Positions 488-33,898 of a DNA stretch of 64,000 nucleotides are shown piece after piece. Both the position numbers and the translations under genes were made by a program. Below the pieces are notes generated by a model. The model did no database searches and was not told where the DNA came from. It saw nothing but the letters and a program-made list of their open reading frames with translations. Numbering within the stretch: position 1 is the first letter of the stretch; each line of letters starts with the position of its first letter. This DNA comes from Lacibacter sp. H407 (GTDB taxonomy: Bacteria; Bacteroidota; Bacteroidia; Chitinophagales; Chitinophagaceae), in the NCBI RefSeq assembly GCF_037892605.1, contig NZ_JBBKTU010000001.1, forward strand, positions 682,001 through 746,000, in the 5' to 3' direction.

Positions 488-1858
488 TTAGTACACGTTT
501 GTTTGTGGTGTAAAGCTTGTCCAGCCTTGCATCCAGTTCGTTGTTCCAAATGCACCAACATAAGTAGTAGTTGTAAAGCCACTTAAACCAAAGAAGCTTG
601 CACCGGTCAACGCAGGACTACCGGCTTTTGGTAAAAAGTTTGGAGCAGTAAGATTGAATGGATTCTCCAACATTACATCATTAGCAGATGCGTATGTTTT
701 ACAGCTATCGACACCTTCTGCTTTTGTTTTAACTGTTGCTGCATTGATCAATGAAGTACTGCTTACTTTATATGGTTCAACAACTCCATGTACAAGGTTA
801 TGACGGAAACTTGAACGCCCATCAATGTAAGCTGCAGCAGTTGAATCACTTTCAAACTGGAAGCCGGCATCCATGTAACCAATCAAGATAGAATTGGTCA
901 ATGAGAATTGTGTAGAACGACGGAAACGTGTAGTAAAATTGTGATTAGCTAATGTTCCATCAGCACCGTTTGGACCAACAAAAGTAAAGTTGCTTAACTG
1001 AGGACGTGTACGTGGTCCGGCAACCGTACCTGCACCATCATTATCACACTCAATACCATTGCCTGCATCGCCACCATCAACAAACTTCGGATCACGAAGT
1101 GAAACGGCAAACTGGATACGACCATTGTAGCCAAAGTCGAAATCAAAATCATCATCGGCTGTTGCAAATGCAATCAGGTTTTTGCAATTTACGGTACCGC
1201 CAAAAAATTCATATGAATCATCATTACCGTACGATACCTGAATGTTTTCAATCACTGTGCCGTTACCTACGCCACCTAAGGTTAAGCCATTTATCTCAGA
1301 GTTAGGATCGGCTGCAATACCTGCAAACTCGATACGTACATAGCGAAGAATACCGCTGTTATCGTTCGCAATACTTCCACCGTACACCGCATTTACACCA
1401 CCTTCGATGATGGGAGTGGTTGATCGGTTTGTTGGAGCATTCCCTAAAAGAATGATACCACCCCAATCGCCCGGCTTACGTTGACCAGGTACTTTGCCTG
1501 ATGTAAAGATGATGGGTTCGCTTGCAGTACCATCAGCGATCAAACGTGAATTCTGCTCTACAATAATGGCTCCTTTATTTACTGTATCGCTTAAAATGAT
1601 AGACCCTGCTGCAATGGTTAACCGGGCTCTGTCGTTTACATACACATATCCTTTTAATGTGTATTTGCCTTTTGGCAGTTCCACATTCTCATTGATACTT
1701 CCGCTGATCACTTTTGAGCTGATGATGCGATCCTGCAATGTTGTGCCAACAGGCGTTGTAGAACCATTGTTCACAGTAGAATCATCAATGTTTACTTTAA
1801 TACAGGCAGTAAAACTTACCGTAACTGCTGCAGCCAATGTCCATAAAAGCTGTTTCAT
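488..1858 (-). CDS. Outer-membrane lipoprotein paired with a TonB receptor
   Basis: A 456-residue lipoprotein with a signal peptide ending in a lipobox (Cys19). The body is rich in G, N and D and has parallel-beta-helix-like periodicity (for example LTIAAGSIILSD, then NSRLIADGTASEPIIF, then GGIILLGNAP). Proteins of this kind are widespread in Bacteroidota and usually sit directly after a TonB-dependent receptor, as here, where a 35-base gap separates it from the receptor gene. By analogy it is a surface-exposed accessory or substrate-capturing partner of that receptor. Its placement next to a phosphate porin, DUF47 and PiT genes suggests a role in acquiring phosphate or a phosphorylated compound. 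The substrate itself cannot be read from the sequence. Confidence 0.75.
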   Translation of the reverse strand: MKQLLWTLAAAVTVSFTACIKVNIDDSTVNNGSTTPVGTTLQDRIISSKVISGSINENVELPKGKYTLKGYVYVNDRARLTIAAGSIILSDTVNKGAIIVEQNSRLIADGTASEPIIFTSGKVPGQRKPGDWGGIILLGNAPTNRSTTPIIEGGVNAVYGGSIANDNSGILRYVRIEFAGIAADPNSEINGLTLGGVGNGTVIENIQVSYGNDDSYEFFGGTVNCKNLIAFATADDDFDFDFGYNGRIQFAVSLRDPKFVDGGDAGNGIECDNDGAGTVAGPRTRPQLSNFTFVGPNGADGTLANHNFTTRFRRSTQFSLTNSILIGYMDAGFQFESDSTAAAYIDGRSSFRHNLVHGVVEPYKVSSTSLINAATVKTKAEGVDSCKTYASANDVMLENPFNLTAPNFLPKAGSPALTGASFFGLSGFTTTTYVGAFGTTNWMQGWTSFTPQTNVY

Positions 1859-1893: not shown

Positions 1894-4707
1894 TTACTTT
1901 CCTTTTAAATCAAAATCATATGTAAAGGCTACTGTAATGGTAGTGCCCGGTGTGTAAGAACTGAATGCTTTATCAATTCCTTTGTTGTATGCTTTTGCTG
2001 CATTTCTGTTCTCGTAAGTTTGAATAGGTTGATTTAGAATATCACTCACTGTTAAACGAACTTCTCCTTTTGTCTTTAATACTTTTTGTGAAAGCTGGAA
2101 ATCAAGAAGATCTCTTGGTCGCTCATAGATATCACCAAAATCTGCATTACCTACCAATGCTAAACGTTGTCCGATCTTGTTATATAATAACGAAACGCCG
2201 GTACCGCCTTTTGAATCGTATTGAAATCCTGCGTTCACGAGATAAGGTGATTGGCCTTGCAACGGACGGATTGTAGCAGGCAATGGATTACCTGATGGAT
2301 CTGTATTTCCCAGCAATACTTCAGAGAAAATCACCGATACATTACCAGACAGAAAGAAGCGTTCTAACCATTCGCTTGACTTAGATAGAAATGAAAGATT
2401 CTTGCGTATCTCAAACTCAGTACCATATAAATCGGCACTAACAGCATTCTGGAATTCGTATTGACGGCGTGTGGCTACACTACCACTATTCAAACGCAAT
2501 TCAATTGGATCAGTAAATTGTTTATAGAAAGCTGCAACAGAAATTACTTCACCGGCTTTGGGATACCACTCAAAACGAACATCAGCGTTGAGGATACTGC
2601 TTCGCTTCAAGTCAGGTGTACCTGCCGTTGAAGCAATGGTTTCAAAATCAAAGAATGTAAATGGTGCAATTTCACGGAACTCAGGTCTTGCTACTGTACG
2701 TGAACCGGCAATGCGGATATTTGCTCTGCTTGCAGGACTGTATGTTAAATTGAATGATGGAAGGAAATCAATTTTTTCTGTGTTTATAATGATCGCCTTA
2801 TCTGTTCCCGGAAGTTGCGATTTGAGGAACTGCTGAAAACTTTCAACACGTGAACCCCACACCAAACGCCATTTGTCAGAAATTTTATTATCAAACATCA
2901 GGAACCCTGCATTTAGAGCAGAAATACCATAATATTTATCCTGTGGGTTTTGCAACGCAGTGATCATTTCAAATCCACCGTTCTTGATAAAGTTGTCACG
3001 GGCAAAAATGCGGTCGAAAGGTTGCGTAAGCAAACTTGCATCACTTGGTTCACTAAAACCAAAGATCGTTGCTCTGAAATCTCTGAAGCGTACCAACGCA
3101 TTACCACCTGCTTTGATGGTTTGCTTTTGTTTACCAATGTCAAATGTATAAGCCAGTGACACATTATAACCTGCTGCGTGATCACTTAAGCTGCTGAAGA
3201 AACGATTGGTATTGTTTCCACGAAGGTTGGCGCTGAACGGATCATTGGAACCGAGACTGCGACCATAAGTGAGTACACGTAAATCGGGTTGCTCTTTACT
3301 GTTGTATGAATAGTTGATGTTCCAGGTAGCTTTCAGGTTACGCCAGAATGTGTGCGCACCTTCTAACTGAGAAGATAATAAACTGCGTTGATTCAATACC
3401 GATGAACGCAAGCGTACATCTTGCAGATTCTCTGTATTCGGACCTTCACGACGGTAGTAATTATCTTCATACAACTGGTTGAATAAATTCTTGAACGCTA
3501 CTTTATGATTACGTTTTGTCCAGGCAAAATTGGCAATGGCTCCAACAGTTGTGCTGTATTTATTTTGCTGATCTGCATAACTAAAGAATGCCTGCTGTCC
3601 ATCTTTTTCAAACAACTCTTTTGTAGCGTTGTAAATAAGCTTTGAATTACGGTATGTAACACCAATTACAGAACCAAAAGCACCACCTTTTTCACTGCGT
3701 ACTGCATTGGCCCATGTAAGATTGTATGATTGAACAGGACCTGCAACGGAAGTTTGTTCGGCCCAAACATCATCACGAAAGTCAGCAGATATCTGACGAC
3801 GTTCTTCTGCCGGCAATGTATTGTAAACACCATACTTCATTGGATAAGAAGAAGGAATACTTCTTCTGTCATCAAAACCTAAGTAATCAGTTGAACCACG
3901 TTCGTTGCTTACAAAATCCTGAAATGCTGATTGCGTATTGAAACCAAAGCCAACACCAAATGCCAGCGAATTTTTTGTTGGAATATCTTTTGTGTTGATT
4001 TGCACCAACCCACCTGCAAACTCACCTGTTAGATCAGGCGTTGCAGTTTTGTTGATGATGATATTATCGATGAGTGCTGAAGGAATTACATCGAATGAAA
4101 ATGCTTTTTTATCCGGCTCGGATGATGGTAACTGTGCACCATTGATGAGTGCCTGGTTATAACGATCGCCCAAACCACGTACAATTACAAACTTATTATC
4201 CTGAATAGATGCACCACTTACACGCTTCAACACTTCGCCTGTATTTTTATCGGGTGTACGACGGATGAAATCTGCCGACAAACCACTTGATAACGATGTG
4301 TTGTTCCGCTGAAAACTTAACAACCCAGATGTGTTCTCTCTGCGTGCAGTACTACGGATAATAATTTCTGTTCCTTCTTTTGCAGCAACATCCATTAAAA
4401 TGGTAAGCGTGTTGTCAATTTCATTTGCCTTTACTTCTACTTCATCCACGGCTTTGGTTTGAAAACCAACAGCGGTTACCGTGAATGTGTACTTCTTTCC
4501 CTGTTCTAACAAAACAGAGAAACGTCCTTCAACATCAGCAGCAAACGAGCGGTTGATTTCTGAAACAGAAATAGAAGCGCCCGGTATAGGTTCGTTTTTT
4601 TGGTTGAGCACACGGCCGTTAATGCGAATAGATTGTGCAGCTGAAGACAGGGTAATTAGTAACAGAGAAAGGAGATAAAATAGTTTCCTCAAGTTTTTCC
4701 TTTGCAT
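1894..4707 (-). CDS. TonB-dependent outer-membrane receptor (CarboxypepD_reg type)
   Basis: About 937 residues. A signal peptide ends at SSAAQ and is followed by a carboxypeptidase-regulatory-like beta domain (INGRVLNQKNEPIPGASISV), a plug domain (from about residue 130, with the RGLGDRYNQALINGAQLP segment) and a 22-strand-type barrel. The reading frame can be extended to a TTG at 4728, but that codon overlaps the probable -7 element, so ATG 4707 is preferred. It is first in an operon with the lipoprotein gene. The promoter lies 14 bases beyond a six-unit array of 7-bp repeats at 4743-4804, so induction by a PhoB/PhoP-type regulator under phosphate limitation is likely. The cargo is unknown; phosphate esters or other phosphorus compounds are the best guess. 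Confidence 0.88.
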   Translation of the reverse strand: MQRKNLRKLFYLLSLLLITLSSAAQSIRINGRVLNQKNEPIPGASISVSEINRSFAADVEGRFSVLLEQGKKYTFTVTAVGFQTKAVDEVEVKANEIDNTLTILMDVAAKEGTEIIIRSTARRENTSGLLSFQRNNTSLSSGLSADFIRRTPDKNTGEVLKRVSGASIQDNKFVIVRGLGDRYNQALINGAQLPSSEPDKKAFSFDVIPSALIDNIIINKTATPDLTGEFAGGLVQINTKDIPTKNSLAFGVGFGFNTQSAFQDFVSNERGSTDYLGFDDRRSIPSSYPMKYGVYNTLPAEERRQISADFRDDVWAEQTSVAGPVQSYNLTWANAVRSEKGGAFGSVIGVTYRNSKLIYNATKELFEKDGQQAFFSYADQQNKYSTTVGAIANFAWTKRNHKVAFKNLFNQLYEDNYYRREGPNTENLQDVRLRSSVLNQRSLLSSQLEGAHTFWRNLKATWNINYSYNSKEQPDLRVLTYGRSLGSNDPFSANLRGNNTNRFFSSLSDHAAGYNVSLAYTFDIGKQKQTIKAGGNALVRFRDFRATIFGFSEPSDASLLTQPFDRIFARDNFIKNGGFEMITALQNPQDKYYGISALNAGFLMFDNKISDKWRLVWGSRVESFQQFLKSQLPGTDKAIIINTEKIDFLPSFNLTYSPASRANIRIAGSRTVARPEFREIAPFTFFDFETIASTAGTPDLKRSSILNADVRFEWYPKAGEVISVAAFYKQFTDPIELRLNSGSVATRRQYEFQNAVSADLYGTEFEIRKNLSFLSKSSEWLERFFLSGNVSVIFSEVLLGNTDPSGNPLPATIRPLQGQSPYLVNAGFQYDSKGGTGVSLLYNKIGQRLALVGNADFGDIYERPRDLLDFQLSQKVLKTKGEVRLTVSDILNQPIQTYENRNAAKAYNKGIDKAFSSYTPGTTITVAFTYDFDLKGK

Positions 4708-4725
4708 AGTATCAATTTGATGCCG

Positions 4726-4733
4726 CAAAGGAA
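4726..4733 (-). promoter_or_regulatory. Probable -7 element of the TonB receptor promoter
   Basis: The minus strand reads TTCCTTTGCGG here, resembling the Bacteroidota -7 box (TAnnTTTG) at the TTTG core. It lies 14 bases from the last operator repeat and about 20 bases from ATG 4707. The same 14-base spacing occurs at the rightward promoter near 4960. Confidence 0.5.
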
Positions 4734-4804: not shown

Positions 4805-4906
4805 GACGGAAGAAAAAACCCGTTGAATCAGTTTATCGGATGCTTGCATATGATTAAAAGAATGATCTGCATAACTGTTTTTGCTCGGAACAGGCACATA
4901 TGGAAA

Positions 4907-4946
4907 ATTAATATACAGTTAACCGCAGGGTAACAATTGGGTAACA
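4907..4946 (+). promoter_or_regulatory. Pho-box-like operator array, four units
   Basis: Plus-strand units at exact 11-base steps: ATTAATA (4907-4913), GTTAACC (4918-4924), GGTAACA (4929-4935) and GGTAACA (4940-4946). The last unit ends 14 bases before TTTG at 4960-4963, the same spacing as in the divergent TonB array. This implies a rightward Pho-type promoter well upstream of the porin gene. Confidence 0.72.
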
Positions 4947-4955
4947 TAGAACTGA

Positions 4956-4963
4956 AACATTTG
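4956..4963 (+). promoter_or_regulatory. Probable -7 element P1 (rightward)
   Basis: AACATTTG is followed by CGCT. It matches TAnnTTTG except at the first base and shares the TTTGCGCT string with the porin-proximal promoter at 5140-5147. Transcription would begin near 4968. Confidence 0.45.
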
Positions 4964-4967
4964 CGCT

Positions 4968-5085
4968 TCCCGGTTAAGAATGAATAAGACATTATTCTGA
5001 TTAACAGGCATTCATACAGCCTCAAGATAAGGCATATATTATCTTTTAATTGCAACGCCCTGCCTTTCCTGGCGGGGCTTTTGGT
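4968..5085 (+). ncRNA. Candidate Pho-controlled small RNA or attenuated leader
   Basis: The segment runs from the likely start of promoter P1 to a terminator hairpin at 5057-5082, about 118 bases, with no credible coding frame. A local hairpin pairs AGAAT/ATTCT and AAT/ATT near 4977-5000. Bases 5037-5054 are a perfect 18-base complement of 5151-5168, which is the short leader of the porin mRNA. The segment could therefore be a trans-acting RNA on the porin leader, or the 5' part of a longer leader that masks the porin start region when the terminator is read through. Expression is not shown by sequence. Confidence 0.38.
5057..5082 (+). terminator. Intrinsic terminator upstream of the porin gene
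   Basis: GCCCTGCC (5057-5064) pairs with GGCGGGGC (5071-5078) with one G-U pair and a 6-base loop, followed by TTTT. It precedes the porin-proximal Pho box, so it would end or attenuate transcripts from promoter P1 rather than those from P2. Confidence 0.6.
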
Positions 5086-5089
5086 TAGA

Positions 5090-5147
5090 GTTAACAATTT
5101 GGTAATACGCATAACCCGTATGCCAATGCCCGTTTTCTACACCTTTG
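5090..5147 (+). promoter_or_regulatory. Porin promoter P2 with a two-unit Pho-box-like site
   Basis: GTTAACA (5090-5096) and GGTAATA (5101-5107) are 11 bases apart. CACCTTTG at 5140-5147 is a plausible -7 element followed by GCGCTGCA, which would place the start near 5152 and give a leader of about 20 bases. The box-to-promoter spacing (37 bases) is longer than the 14 bases at the other two arrays. Confidence 0.55.
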
Positions 5148-5171
5148 CGCTGCAATTAAAAGATAATACCA

Positions 5172-6392
5172 TTGAGAACAATCGTAGGGGCTATGATTGT
5201 CGTACTATTATTCATTTCGGACAACCTCATGGCCCAAAACAATCAGCTCGACACAATTAGTACTTCCGCTAAGAAGAAGTGGTACGAAACCATTTCCTTA
5301 CGTGGTTACATGCAGGTTCGTTATAACCGCTTGTTAGAAACGAATGAAAACCTGAAATGTGAACAATGCGACAAATCATGGGGCGAAGGTGGTGGATTCG
5401 CCATTCGACGTGCACGACTTATCTTAAGTGGCAACCTCACAAAACAAATCTACTTCTACATTCAACCCGATTTTGGCAGCACCGTCGGAACATCACAAAA
5501 TGTATTCCAGCTACGTGATGCATATGTAGATGTTGCGTTCGATAAAAAAAGTGAGTTCAGAGTTCGTATTGGTCAAAGTAAAGTACCGTATGGTTTTGAG
5601 AATATGCAATCGAGTCAGAACCGTTTGCCGCTCGACCGGAACGATGCGATGAACAGCGCTGTATCGAACGAACGTGATCTGGGTGTATTCTTCTATTGGG
5701 CTCCTGCAAAAACAAGAGAACAGTATCCCGAGTTTATTAATGATAACAGAAAAGGATCAGGTGATTATGGTGTATTTGCATTTGGAGTATATAATGGTCA
5801 AACTGCGAACAAACCTGAGCAAAATAAAAAAGCTCATATTGTTTCAAGACTCAGCTATCCCTTCAAAATAAAAAACCAGACAATTGAACCGGCCATTCAG
5901 GCATATACCGGCCAATACGTGTTACCCACCGATGTGCGGACAGCCGGGGTTAAATCAGTAAAAAGTTTTGAATACAGAGATGAACGTGCCGCTGTAAGTT
6001 TTAACTTGTATCCCAATCCTATCGGTTTACTTACGGAATATAACTGGGGACGTGGCCCGCAATACAATCCGGTTAATGATTCCATTGAAGTAAAAAACCT
6101 GCGTGGTGGTTATGCTACACTCTATGGACGCATAAAAAGTAAAACAAAGAAAGACATGTTCTTTTTTCCATATACCCGTGTACAACAATATGAAGGTGGA
6201 AAAAAACATGAACTGGATGCAAGAAGTTACAATGTAAAAGAAATTGAAATGGGCGTTGAGTGGCAGATGAACCGCTTTTTTGAAATTACGGCTGCTTACA
6301 CTATTTCAAAGAGAAGATTCGAAGATTCTAAGTTGCGTGAAAATTACCAGCAGGGAAACTTGTTGCGATTACAGGCACAATTAAATTTTTAA
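5172..6392 (+). CDS. Phosphate-selective porin, OprP/OprO type
   Basis: A 406-residue outer-membrane porin. The TTG start gives a complete signal peptide (MRTIVGAMIVVLL, cleavage after MAQ); the next ATG at 5193 would remove its basic residue. The mature part begins with ISLRGYMQVRYNRL, then IRRARLILSGNL and the AYVDVAF and RIGQSKVPYGFENMQSS segments that are standard for the Porin_O_P family, and ends in a strand with terminal Phe. It is followed 18 bases later by a DUF47 gene and then by a PiT gene, giving a complete route for phosphate across both membranes. The short leader is the target of the inverted repeat described above and its promoter carries a Pho-like box. Confidence 0.9.
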   Translation: MRTIVGAMIVVLLFISDNLMAQNNQLDTISTSAKKKWYETISLRGYMQVRYNRLLETNENLKCEQCDKSWGEGGGFAIRRARLILSGNLTKQIYFYIQPDFGSTVGTSQNVFQLRDAYVDVAFDKKSEFRVRIGQSKVPYGFENMQSSQNRLPLDRNDAMNSAVSNERDLGVFFYWAPAKTREQYPEFINDNRKGSGDYGVFAFGVYNGQTANKPEQNKKAHIVSRLSYPFKIKNQTIEPAIQAYTGQYVLPTDVRTAGVKSVKSFEYRDERAAVSFNLYPNPIGLLTEYNWGRGPQYNPVNDSIEVKNLRGGYATLYGRIKSKTKKDMFFFPYTRVQQYEGGKKHELDARSYNVKEIEMGVEWQMNRFFEITAAYTISKRRFEDSKLRENYQQGNLLRLQAQLNF

Positions 6393-6410: not shown

Positions 6411-7061
6411 ATGTCAGTGATCAATTCGTTCATGAAATTCTTTCTGCCCAAGGATCGTATTTTTTATCAGTTGTTTGAAGAAGTATCTGTAACATCTTTA
6501 GAAATGGCAGTACTGCTTAAAAAGATGGTAAACGAACGTGAATTTGATGTACGGGCCGATATTATACGCCAGATCGAAGACCTGGAACATAAGAATGATG
6601 ATTTGACACACAAGATATTCACGGAGCTGAGCCGCAACTTTATTACTCCTTTCGATCGGGAAGATATTCACTATCTCGCCTCAGCAATGGACGATGTGGC
6701 GGATTATATTTTTGCGTCTGCTAAAAAGATCAACTTTTACCGTGTAGATCCACAACACGAAAGTTTCAGCAAAATGGCTGACCTGATTGTACAAGGTTGC
6801 GAAAACATTAAGATTGCTGTTACCGGTTTAAAGGATATGAAAAATATGCGCCAGATCACAGATGCATTGGTACGCATTAACAGCATCGAAAACCAGGCCG
6901 ATGATGTGTTTGATTACAGCATCGAACGCTTGTTTGCAACAGAGAATGATGCCAAAGAAGTAATCAAGAAAAGAGAAATTTATCAGGTAATGGAAATTGC
7001 AACCGATAAATGTGAAGATGCAGCGAATGTAATTGAATCTATTATTGTGAAATACGCATAA
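6411..7061 (+). CDS. DUF47 (PhoU-like) phosphate transport regulator
   Basis: A 216-residue, all-helical cytoplasmic protein with no membrane segment. It has the PhoU-like repeated helices with acidic pairs typical of DUF47 (EDLEHKNDDLTHKIFTEL and later SIENQADDVFDYSI, then EIATDKCEDAANVIESI). DUF47 proteins are nearly always encoded next to PiT transporters and modulate them. Here the gene sits between the porin and PiT genes in the same direction, so co-transcription is expected. Length and order are normal for Bacteroidota. Confidence 0.92.
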   Translation: MSVINSFMKFFLPKDRIFYQLFEEVSVTSLEMAVLLKKMVNEREFDVRADIIRQIEDLEHKNDDLTHKIFTELSRNFITPFDREDIHYLASAMDDVADYIFASAKKINFYRVDPQHESFSKMADLIVQGCENIKIAVTGLKDMKNMRQITDALVRINSIENQADDVFDYSIERLFATENDAKEVIKKREIYQVMEIATDKCEDAANVIESIIVKYA

Positions 7062-7142: not shown

Positions 7143-8282
7143 ATGACTTTACTTGTAATCATCATAGCACTGGCTCTCATTTTTGATTATATCAATGGCT
7201 TTCATGATGCGGCCAACTCTATTGCCACCATTGTATCAACCAAAGTATTAACACCGTTTCAAGCGGTGGTGTGGGCAGCGTTCTTCAACTTCGTAGCCTT
7301 TTTCATTTTTACTGATCATGAAGTGGCGAACACGATTGCCAAAACAGTACACAAAGAATTTATCACAATGCCGCTTGTTTTGTCTGGATTAATTGCGGCC
7401 ATTTTCTGGAATCTGCTCACATGGTGGTATGGTATTCCTTCTTCATCATCACATACATTGATCGGTGGATTTGCGGGTGCTGCTATTGCGCATGCCGGTT
7501 TCCAGAGTATTGATCCAACGAGTATTTATAAAACACTCATCTTTATTATTCTTGCTCCCATCATTGGAATGCTGATCTCCATTTTTATTACGCTTGTTAC
7601 CATTCAACGTAATTTCTGGCTCAAGATCGCTATCATCACTTTACTCATCAGTGCAAGTATTATTTTCATTCCATTCAAAAAAGATTTTGAACGCTGGGCC
7701 TTGCTTGGTCTCGGAGTAATTTTTGTGGGGACCTATATTTACAACCACTTGCGTGGTGAAACGGCTTACCGTACAGCCAATATGTATAAAAAATTGCAGC
7801 TGGTTTCATCCGCCATCTTCAGCATTGGTCATGGTGGTAACGATGCACAAAAAGTAATGGGTATCATTATGGCTGCATTGATCGCCTACGACCCTACGCA
7901 GTTCCGTTTAGGTGAAATGCCTAACTGGATTCCCATTGCCTGCTACTCGGCTATTGCACTTGGCACCATGAGCGGCGGCTGGAAGATCATTAAAACCATG
8001 GGCACCAAAATCACCAAGGTTACACCACTGGAAGGTGTTGTTGCTGAAACTGCCGGTGCTATCACGTTGTTTACAGCTGCCAATCTAGGTGCGCCGGTTA
8101 GTACTACGCATACCATTACCGGTTCTATTGTGGGCGTGGGAGCTACCCGTCGTTTAAGTGCGGTACGTTGGGGTGTAACCATCAACCTGTTGTGGGCGTG
8201 GATCTTAACCATACCTGTGAGTGCAGGTGTGGCTGCATTGGTGTATGCACTGTTTCACTTCTTTATTCCGGGGTTTGATTAA
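7143..8282 (+). CDS. PiT-family inorganic phosphate transporter
   Basis: A 379-residue inner-membrane protein with about ten hydrophobic segments. Both inverted PiT signatures are present: NGFHDAANSIAT around residues 18-29 and GHGGNDAQK at 229-237. The SSSSHTLIGG and PVSTTHTITGS repeats are also present. The family imports phosphate with protons or sodium. It is last of the porin-DUF47-PiT series and is followed by a terminator. Control by phosphate is inferred from the Pho-like boxes upstream of the porin gene. Confidence 0.95.
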   Translation: MTLLVIIIALALIFDYINGFHDAANSIATIVSTKVLTPFQAVVWAAFFNFVAFFIFTDHEVANTIAKTVHKEFITMPLVLSGLIAAIFWNLLTWWYGIPSSSSHTLIGGFAGAAIAHAGFQSIDPTSIYKTLIFIILAPIIGMLISIFITLVTIQRNFWLKIAIITLLISASIIFIPFKKDFERWALLGLGVIFVGTYIYNHLRGETAYRTANMYKKLQLVSSAIFSIGHGGNDAQKVMGIIMAALIAYDPTQFRLGEMPNWIPIACYSAIALGTMSGGWKIIKTMGTKITKVTPLEGVVAETAGAITLFTAANLGAPVSTTHTITGSIVGVGATRRLSAVRWGVTINLLWAWILTIPVSAGVAALVYALFHFFIPGFD

Positions 8283-8378: not shown

Positions 8379-9242
8379 ATGAAAGGAATTATTCTTGCAG
8401 GCGGATCGGGTACCAGATTGCATCCCATCACCTTTGCGATCAGTAAGCAGATCATGCCGATCTATGATAAGCCGATGATCTATTACCCATTATCTGTTTT
8501 GATGATGGCAGGTATCCGTGAAATTTTAATTATCTCTACCCCGCAGGATCTGCCCAACTTCAAACGACTGTTTGGCGATGGAAGTACACTCGGCGTGAGT
8601 TTTACATACGAAGAGCAAGCTGTTCCAAATGGCTTGGCACAGGCATTTGTAATTGGCGAAAAATTCATTGGCAACGATAGTGTGGCGTTGGTGTTGGGTG
8701 ACAATATTTTCTACGGTGCAGGACTGGGCAAATTACTCGCCAACAATACAAACCCCGATGGCGGAATTATTTATGCCTATCATGTAAGCGATCCGGAACG
8801 TTATGGCGTAGTTGATTTTGATGAAAACTTCAATGCTTTGAGTATTGAAGAAAAACCTGCTGAACCGAAAAGTAATTATGCTGTTCCCGGTTTATACTTC
8901 TATGATAATGATGTGGTACAGATCGCAAAAGATTTGAAACCAAGCCCTCGTGGTGAATATGAAATTACCGATGTAAATAAAGAATACCTGAAACGTGGCA
9001 AGCTGAAAGTATCCATTCTTGACCGTGGCACTGCGTGGTTAGACACAGGTACGTTTGATTCGTTAATGCAAGCTTCACAGTTTGTACAGGTAATTGAGCA
9101 GCGACAGGGAATCAAGATCGCCTGTATTGAAGAAATTGCATGGCGTAAAGGATTTATTACAACTGAACAATTGCAGGAGCTGGCGAAACCATTATTAAAA
9201 AGCGGTTACGGACAGTATATCATGAATCTCATCAAACAATAA
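8379..9242 (+). CDS. rfbA: Glucose-1-phosphate thymidylyltransferase
   Basis: A 287-residue nucleotidyltransferase that makes dTDP-glucose from glucose 1-phosphate and dTTP, the first step of dTDP-rhamnose and related sugars. The N-terminal GGSGTRLHP signature (residues 8-16), [26 protein letters not shown] and [13 protein letters not shown] blocks are those of RmlA/RfbA. A CATCTTTG promoter-like box at 8350-8357 lies 22 bases before the ATG. The other rml genes (rfbB, rfbC, rfbD) are not adjacent; the next gene, in the same direction 21 bases later, is galE. Confidence 0.95.
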
Positions 9243-9263
9243 ACAAACAGCGATCAAACAACT

Positions 9264-10319
9264 ATGAATAAGATATTAGTTACAGGCGGATGCGGATACA
9301 TTGGAGCACATACCATTGTTGACCTGGTTGAAAACGGATACGAAGTGGTATGTGTTGATAATAATTCACGATCAAACATGAAACTGCTGGATGGTGCAGA
9401 AAAAATCCTGGGCCAAAAAGTAAAGAATTACAAAGTAGATCTCTGCAATTATGATGAAACCTATGCGGTGTTGCAGGAGAATCCTGATATTACCGGTGTT
9501 ATTCATTTTGCAGCCTACAAAGCAGTTGGTGAAAGTGTAGAACGTCCGTTGATGTATTTTGAAAACAATCTTTTATCACTCATCAACCTGCTGAAATGTG
9601 TGCAGGAATTTCAGATTCCTCATTTTGTATTTTCATCTTCCTGTACAGTTTATGGTAATCCTGATGTGGTACCTGTTACTGAAGAAACGCCACCGAAGCC
9701 GGCCGAAAGTCCATACGGTTATACCAAACAAATGGGTGAGCAGATCGTAAGCGAAACCGTAAAAAATATTTCTACCAACGCTATTCTGCTTCGTTACTTC
9801 AACCCGGCGGGTGCACACCCAAGTGGCATTATTGGTGAATTGCCCGTTGGTCGTCCGCAAAATTTGGTACCGGCTATTACACAAACCGGCATTGGCAAAT
9901 TGCCGCAAATGGTGGTGTATGGCAATGATTACGATACAAGAGATGGTTCCTGTGTGCGTGATTTTATTCATGTGTGCGATCTGGCGCATGCACATACATT
10001 GGCCCTTGATTACCTCGTACAGAAAAAGAACATCAGCCGCTGCGAAGTATTTAACCTCGGCACCGGTAATGGCGTAACGGTGCTGGAAGCCATTCAAACG
10101 TTTGAAAAAGTAAGTGGCGAAAAACTCAATTACAAGATCGGTCCACGCCGTGCGGGTGATGTAGTGGCAACTTATGCGAATAACGATAAAGCAAAAACAT
10201 TGCTCGGCTGGGATCCAAAGTTCAGCCTCGACGATATGATGTCTACCGCCTGGCAGTGGGAACTGAATGTAAAGCGGGACGAAGGCTTGTTCAACAGCCA
10301 GAACAGCGTACTGAATTAA
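9264..10319 (+). CDS. galE: UDP-glucose 4-epimerase
   Basis: A 351-residue extended short-chain dehydrogenase that interconverts UDP-glucose and UDP-galactose with bound NAD. It shows the GGCGYIGAH nucleotide-binding loop (residues 8-16), the catalytic serine region SSSCTVYG and the YGYTK (Y151-K155) motif. The RYFNPAGAHPSG and DYDTRDGSCVRDFIHV blocks are characteristic of GalE. It follows rfbA by 21 bases and likely shares its transcript, supplying sugar nucleotides for surface polysaccharide. A terminator follows. Confidence 0.96.
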   Translation: MNKILVTGGCGYIGAHTIVDLVENGYEVVCVDNNSRSNMKLLDGAEKILGQKVKNYKVDLCNYDETYAVLQENPDITGVIHFAAYKAVGESVERPLMYFENNLLSLINLLKCVQEFQIPHFVFSSSCTVYGNPDVVPVTEETPPKPAESPYGYTKQMGEQIVSETVKNISTNAILLRYFNPAGAHPSGIIGELPVGRPQNLVPAITQTGIGKLPQMVVYGNDYDTRDGSCVRDFIHVCDLAHAHTLALDYLVQKKNISRCEVFNLGTGNGVTVLEAIQTFEKVSGEKLNYKIGPRRAGDVVATYANNDKAKTLLGWDPKFSLDDMMSTAWQWELNVKRDEGLFNSQNSVLN

Positions 10320-24874: not shown

Positions 24875-24911
24875 AAAACGAGGGCGGTCGCTAAGCGACC
24901 GCCCTCGTTTT
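24875..24911. terminator. 17-bp bidirectional terminator
   Basis: Bases 24875-24891 and 24895-24911 form a perfect 17-bp stem around a TAA loop, with a GC-rich centre and AAAA/TTTT ends. It serves both the POT gene and the convergent PsbP-like gene. Confidence 0.92.
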
Positions 24912-33860: not shown

Positions 33861-33898
33861 ACATAAAAAAGGACAGCAAATGCTGTCCTTTTTTATGT
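33861..33898. terminator. 17-bp bidirectional terminator
   Basis: Bases 33861-33877 and 33882-33898 form a perfect stem with GGACAGC/GCTGTCC at the centre and A/T runs at the base. It serves the DUF2807 gene and the convergent LytTR gene. Confidence 0.9.

Follow-up and report, generated by a model that had tools for sequence, protein, structure and literature searches.

The window, i.e., the whole 64-kb stretch of Lacibacter sp. H407 DNA analysed here (the genome of the same organism, G000, is referred to below as the own genome), contains a neighborhood that, judged by its genes, looks like a Pho locus. A gene for a phosphate-selective porin (Porin_O_P, PF07396, E 6.4e-24; 5172–6392, plus strand, with a TTG start at 5172) is followed on the same strand by genes for a DUF47/PhoU_div protein (6411–7061; PF01865) and a PHO4/PiT-type phosphate transporter (7143–8282; PF01384). 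Divergently, on the minus strand, lie genes for a TonB-dependent receptor (1894–4728; PF07715/PF13715), the promoter of which carries Pho-type repeats (box score 16.0, matched by 0 of 300 shuffles), and for its partner protein (488–1858, from the list of open reading frames), which has a lipoprotein-like N-terminus, no Pfam or NCBIfam match, and relatives at E 1e-30 or better in 280 of the 394 family genomes. The own genome encodes, just past the left end of the window, a response regulator and a histidine kinase that converge on 488–1858; the best NCBIfam matches are PhoB for the regulator (236.9 bits, below the cut-off of 296.2) and PnpS for the kinase (250.1 bits, cut-off 400), with PhoR at 221.3 bits (cut-off 334.2), both again below the cut-off. 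In Flavobacterium johnsoniae, the excerpted report places OprP, a TonB-dependent transporter and a hypothetical lipoprotein in the phoBR cluster, and describes the transporter and the lipoprotein as strongly induced upon phosphate depletion, and OprP as not induced (PMC8115612). The window genes may be counterparts of these genes. Given that OprP is not induced there, induction of the porin by PhoB cannot be assumed.

Upstream of the porin gene, two promoter-like elements are recognizable on the plus strand. The first, P1, contains Pho-type direct repeats with an 11-nt period (TTAAC at 4919, GTAAC at 4930 and GTAAC at 4941; 4919–4945), a putative PhoB site with box scores of 13.7 and 11.2 (0 of 300 shuffles as high), followed by the −7-like box AACATTTG (4956–4963), with TTTG at 4960–4963. 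The second, P2, consists of the Pho-type box TTAACAATTTGGTAATA (5091–5107), which recurs in the same form in 12 of 12 carriers of the locus, and the −7-like box CACCTTTG (5140–5147, with TTTG at 5144–5147), the spacing of which is constant among relatives. The excerpted transcriptome report on F. psychrophilum gives TAnnTTTG at −12 to −5 as the sigma-A consensus and 24 bp as the median 5′ UTR (PMC9723704). With the −7 boxes placed at −12 to −5 as in that species, transcription is predicted to start at ~4968 and ~5152, yielding an RNA of ~116 nt (4968–5083) that would end at an intrinsic terminator (5057–5082) and a porin mRNA leader of ~20 nt, a normal length by the F. psychrophilum standard. 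The 11-nt repeats and the PhoB/PhoR-like neighbors are what point to the small RNA (sRNA) and the porin as putative members of the PhoB regulon.

Much of this layout had been proposed in the first-pass annotation, namely, a promoter-like element with a Pho array, the absence of a coding frame after it, a terminator at 5057–5082 and starts near 4968 and 5152, and it holds: the same starts are predicted from the placement of the −7 box in the F. psychrophilum excerpt, and no plus-strand open reading frame of at least 60 aa lies within the predicted sRNA stretch. A minus-strand frame of 94 aa (4828–5112) overlaps the region, but the matching frame is broken by stops in five relatives (L003, L004, L005, L006 and L012). 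The terminator scan by itself is not above chance (1 found, 0.8 expected), although the stem (5057–5078, followed by a T-rich tail) covaries in relatives. For the last 86 nt of the sRNA, a model named R1 was built from 10 sequences. In the terminator, 4 of the 9 pairs have changed on both sides and 96.7% of cells are paired; 0 of 500 shuffles were as high on either measure, and slid controls gave 37–58%. The locus thus appears to possess the covarying terminator stem that a base-pairing sRNA would have. The predicted RNA folds with a z of −3.2, and its minimum-energy fold includes a possible internal hairpin (AAGATAA/TTATCTT; 5024–5045), for which the comparative signal is weaker (84% of cells paired, 1 pair changed on both sides); this hairpin is not the minimum-energy fold in L012, and other hairpins occupy the place in L091, L092 and L008. 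Rfam 15 has no match in the region at the gathering score, nor at E up to 1 within 4880–5260.

The terminator and P2 are enclosed by the two arms of an inverted repeat, 5037–5058 and 5147–5168, each of 22 nt, complementary at 21 of 22 positions (95%) and separated by 88 nt. An inverted-repeat search of the whole window (12-base seed, at least 18 nt, within 250 nt) recovered 4 such repeats, two of them tight hairpins (1–2 nt apart) and two spaced, both of 22 nt, the one at the porin leader being 95% and the other 86% complementary. The tight ones, at 24875–24911 and 33861–33898, are perfect 18-bp hairpins. The repeat had been described as an 18-base perfect antisense to essentially the entire porin leader. 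In the window, the 18-nt complement is indeed present (5037–5054 with 5151–5168) and reaches from +1 to +17 of the 20-nt leader, but what is conserved among relatives is a 12-nt core, CTTTTAATTGCA in the 5′ arm (5043–5054) and TGCAATTAAAAG in the 3′ arm (5151–5162), at the 5′ end of the porin mRNA, which spans +1 to ~+11; the remainder of the 18-nt match is not generally conserved. The core of the sRNA arm is invariant in 10 of 10 aligned sRNAs. Its first 3 bases belong to the internal hairpin and bases 5046–5054 are unpaired in the minimum-energy fold of the window RNA, in which UUAAUUGCA and two further bases lie unpaired between the hairpin and the terminator.

Porin homologs were searched for in three sets: 14 genus genomes, 6 of which had a hit at E 1e-30 or better; 394 family genomes, 41 with a hit at E 1e-60; and GTDB contigs, of which the best 80 of 306 hits were kept. 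Once duplicates were removed, 108 porin loci remained, and the arm counts use the 107 for which 250 nt or more of upstream sequence is present. Lack of co-conservation of the arms in relatives had been named beforehand as a refutation of the proposal, but the arms proved to be co-conserved: both were found in 10 of the 107 loci, neither in 96, and the leader arm alone in one (L090, genome G370). Outside this count, in G305, both arms lie at a contig end (L152) and the porin at the start of another contig. The layout is rigid: the P2 Pho-type box starts 61–62 nt 5′ of the leader core in 12 of 12 carriers, and the porin start lies 21–22 nt after the first core base in 10 of 10 adjacent-arm carriers (TTG in 7, ATG in 3), with a TTG at 20 nt in G370. 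The R1 model, matches to which adjoin the porin in relatives, scores 93 bits or more in 5 of the 14 genus genomes, always next to the porin (next score 39.1), and a sixth porin-bearing genus genome, G013, with a porin 58% identical, has no strong match. Among the 394 family genomes, R1 reaches at least 73 bits in 8, adjoining the porin (at the contig end in G305), and 49.8 bits in G370; all 9 family genomes with at least 49.8 bits also carry the leader arm, the next-best score being 46.1 bits. Weaker R1 matches (<49.8 bits) were rejected as sRNAs: the 8 viewed by eye are ordinary-looking terminators without the core. No carriers were found outside the family at E 1e-6 in 396 order genomes (stricter filters), and plasmids gave no match.

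Given that the carriers are mostly nearer relatives by porin identity (62.8–100%), these co-occurrence counts are not independent; L102, L016 and L030, with porin identities of 62.8–63.6%, lack both arms. A chance repeat was rejected on the co-occurrence of the arms, not on the length of the match, and complementarity to a target leader is conserved. An explanation without RNA regulation would be that promoter function or translation requires the leader arm, the other arm being a by-product, for instance, of an old inverted duplication. The core is frozen rather than freely covarying, as such an explanation would have it; against it, most porin loci do without the leader motif (96 of 107), all 11 loci with the motif have the antisense arm in the genome, and the 12-mer occurs at no other leader in the own genome, so that we regard this explanation as very improbable. 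P1-like boxes scored p < 0.01 (300 shuffles) in 9 of the 11 carrier loci scanned and were not significant in L092 (p 0.14) and L152 (p 0.26), so that co-regulation of the sRNA and the porin is likely, although not universal by this measure. As the model used to score the boxes came from the P2 elements of these loci, the scores measure likeness to P2 rather than PhoB binding.

The perfect match varies among carriers from 12 to 18 nt: the window has 18 nt, whereas L003, L004, L005, L008, L012, L091 and L092 match over 12 or 13 nt, with one extra A in the L005 leader and a G-U pair in L003 and L004. Match length is a weak criterion, given that L059, a non-carrier, attains 13 nt with an A+T-rich match and that 12 nt or more were obtained in 4 of 333 shuffles. 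The sRNAs of L012, L091 and L092 keep TTAT before the core, and their leaders match only the last of these four bases; in L012, the TTAT could pair with an internal AGATAA, whereas L091 and L092 lack such a partner. The internal hairpin as the reason for a longer match was rejected: it fits the window, most genus relatives and L088 but fails in L091 and L092. When cognate and non-cognate sRNA-leader pairs of the 12 carriers were compared by permutation, with relatedness still included, cognate pairs had the longer mean perfect match (14.2 versus 13.4 nt; p 0.007) and the lower duplex energy (−19.9 versus −18.2 kcal/mol; p 0.001). This effect comes mostly from G370 and L008, and, the sRNA core being invariant, evidence of covariation is limited to the flanks in these two lineages.

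G370 separates the two arms. Its porin contig has the Pho-type box and the leader but no adjacent arm; the missing sRNA arm and terminator are on a different contig (contigs C2 and C3), where the R1 match directly follows the stop codon of a gene whose product (L174 4922–6298) is 61% identical to that of window 488–1858, i.e., it lies in the 3′ UTR of a TonB receptor/lipoprotein operon. Pho-type repeats are present in the promoter of this operon (score 15.2, a value reached by 0 of 300 shuffles), and the operon converges on a histidine kinase/response regulator pair. The arms nevertheless match perfectly over 15 nt, compared with at most 12 nt between the G370 sRNA and the other 11 leaders, and TGCAATTAAAAG occurs exactly twice in the genome (95% complete), in the porin leader and in this 3′ UTR. 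In the three pairs that extend the core, G370 and the window have different bases, which means that both arms have changed. The G370 porin frame, however, contains an internal TAA after 333 codons (codon 334; next stop at 402), compared with 403–409 codons in the adjacent-arm carriers (n = 10), and may be a decaying gene or a metagenome assembly error; the kept pairing may therefore be a recent leftover. A target encoded at a separate locus was found in G370 only; elsewhere, the sRNA adjoins its target, including the relatives of G370 in genus g54 (G066 and G323), in which the module still adjoins the porin. The antisense was not found in the 3′ UTR of the lipoprotein-like gene 488–1858 itself or of its relatives in G066 (where a terminator is present), G038, G003, G013, G007 and G229. 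As a side observation, genes named by likeness as nucleotidylyltransferase and UDP-glucose 4-epimerase follow the PiT gene in the window (8379–10319), and the same two types lie next to the TonB-receptor operon of G370 (L174 10–1956), which hints at a rearranged ancestral Pho locus.

Two models had been put forward at the outset, a trans-acting RNA and a cis switch, the latter being an attenuator in which the arms pair with each other on RNAs that read through from P1, concealing the porin start, whereas RNAs begun at P2 stay open. Read-through RNA is indeed predicted to fold strongly with the arms paired (z −6.2), and the arms are adjacent in 10 of the 11 carriers of the 107-locus count. A cis attenuator or riboswitch would, however, have both arms on one transcript in every carrier, and in G370 they are unlinked yet complementary, although the porin frame there is interrupted; furthermore, compensatory changes have preserved the terminator that separates the arms. 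On these two grounds, we reject a cis-only switch as the main model and consider it improbable, although cis read-through might occur as a side effect in adjacent-arm genomes. The trans-acting RNA, in turn, gains from the co-occurrence of the arms, the covariation of the terminator and the G370 arm that still matches its porin leader from another contig, and is the model that the evidence favors.

A wider set of targets for such an RNA appears unlikely. In the own genome, the 12-mer occurs at 6 sites, the two arms and 4 sites inside coding sequences. In nine relatives, it occurs at 58 places, of which 17 are the arms by coordinates; of the remaining 41, 18 were viewed, and 17 of these fall within open reading frames of at least 60 aa on either strand, the one at L238 being in none. 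The core sites in L220 and L228 lie 70–74 nt before the start of another frame, not at the distance of a 20-nt leader. A looser pattern, TTTG-N1-6-TGCAATTAA, was found at 52 places in 8 genomes; the 30 viewed comprise 8 porin leaders, one per genome, and 22 sites overlapping open reading frames of at least 80 aa. The positions of the sites in the own genome and in the relatives viewed make a general leader motif or a multi-gene regulon unlikely, and this candidate was set aside.

The arms, terminator, boxes, co-conservation and relocation are all seen in the sequence, and the reading that we consider probable is that a ~116-nt sRNA, co-induced with the porin in the Pho response, base-pairs with the start of the porin mRNA and thereby prevents ribosomes from loading. 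The stretch 4968–5083 would be transcribed from its own Pho-type promoter, presumably under PhoB control, into an sRNA with a 3′ part comprising the hairpin, the exposed UUAAUUGCA and the terminator. Acting as a separate RNA molecule, this sRNA would pair in the cell through its 12-nt core with positions +1 to +11 of the porin mRNA (to +17 in the window species), cover most of the 20-nt leader and, most likely, keep the 30S subunit off the porin start codon. The simplest consequence of pairing over +1 to +11 or +17 of a ~20-nt leader would be that ribosomes cannot load. The main rival concerns the direction of the effect: by pairing at the extreme 5′ end, the same trans-acting sRNA might shield the porin mRNA from decay and raise porin levels in a coherent loop. 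Pairing does begin at the predicted +1, and FasX of Streptococcus pyogenes, which according to the excerpted source pairs at the 5′ end or ribosome-binding region of its targets, increases ska by stabilizing the mRNA through pairing at its 5′ end, and decreases cpa (PMC4691137). FasX resembles the porin sRNA in pairing at the 5′ end of the target mRNA, a likeness of description rather than sequence; in the same excerpt it has several targets and is not described as part of a phosphate response. Here, a ~20-nt leader leaves 9 nt between the core and the start codon, and 3 nt for the full 18-nt match of the window, so that the duplex should clash with ribosome loading, and we consider stabilization unlikely. 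If the sRNA represses the porin, the Pho-type boxes on both would make the circuit an incoherent feed-forward loop, by which the amount of porin made during the phosphate response would be capped or its synthesis delayed. In G370, with the module in the 3′ UTR of the TonB-receptor operon, expression of the active uptake system would itself dampen the porin. More tentatively, the module might be viewed as a portable, single-target RNA element that connects two phosphate routes across the outer membrane, lowering the passive porin at any time that the active TonB-receptor operon is expressed. In most carriers it would be encoded next to the porin as an sRNA gene of its own, and in one lineage it would have been rewired into the 3′ UTR of the receptor operon.

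The kind of regulator proposed, a base-pairing sRNA acting on an outer-membrane protein, is already known; the sRNA family, its placement in tandem ahead of what seems to be its only target and the copy carried by the partner operon in its 3′ UTR appear to be new, and no sRNA acting on this porin was found in the literature among the matches listed. CpxQ and OppZ are sRNAs derived from 3′ UTRs. The G370 copy, located between a stop codon and a terminator, may be alike, and its release is possible, whereas the sRNA of other carriers lies upstream of the target, mostly with a P1-like box. The divergent type I antitoxin RNAs OhsC, OrzO and IstR-1 adjoin the gene that they act on and have ~18–20 nt of complementarity to the leader of the neighboring mRNA. 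The porin sRNA likewise has an adjacent gene and similar complementarity to the leader of its neighbor, but its target is a transport porin and it is arranged in tandem upstream rather than divergently. Among Bacteroidota, the excerpted report on Bacteroides thetaiotaomicron describes GibS, an sRNA of ~145 nt that pairs around start codons, and reports that obvious homologs of Hfq and ProQ are absent from Bacteroides (PMC7366714). GibS shares with the predicted porin sRNA the phylum, pairing in the start-codon region and an organism without an obvious Hfq; as excerpted, it differs by its GlcNAc response, 5′ seed and metabolic-gene targets, whereas in the porin sRNA the pairing segment lies toward the 3′ end, just ahead of the terminator, and the target is usually the adjacent gene. 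The Hfq that the Hfq-dependent class of sRNAs calls for (PF17209) was not found in the own genome, the control being detected in 5 of the 14 named genomes. To our knowledge, few sRNA-target pairs are defined in Bacteroidota. The present pair offers one clear target, sequence variants that arose naturally and a relocation, likewise natural, by which cis and trans action can be told apart; the phosphate response would gain a post-transcriptional layer, and the pair would be a concrete case of an sRNA gene becoming, or arising from, a 3′ UTR.

Two minor observations concern the porin start and leader. The start codon appears to be TTG in the window (5172), L003–L006, L008, L092 and L090, and ATG in L012, L088 and L091; a weak TTG start may be a factor in leader control. 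In G013, Pho-type repeats and a TTTG box (L007, ~1060–1510) lie roughly 340–380 nt before the start of the porin, which is divergent in sequence, and this porin has a long leader with several apparent short inverted repeats, so that a different form of leader control is possible there.
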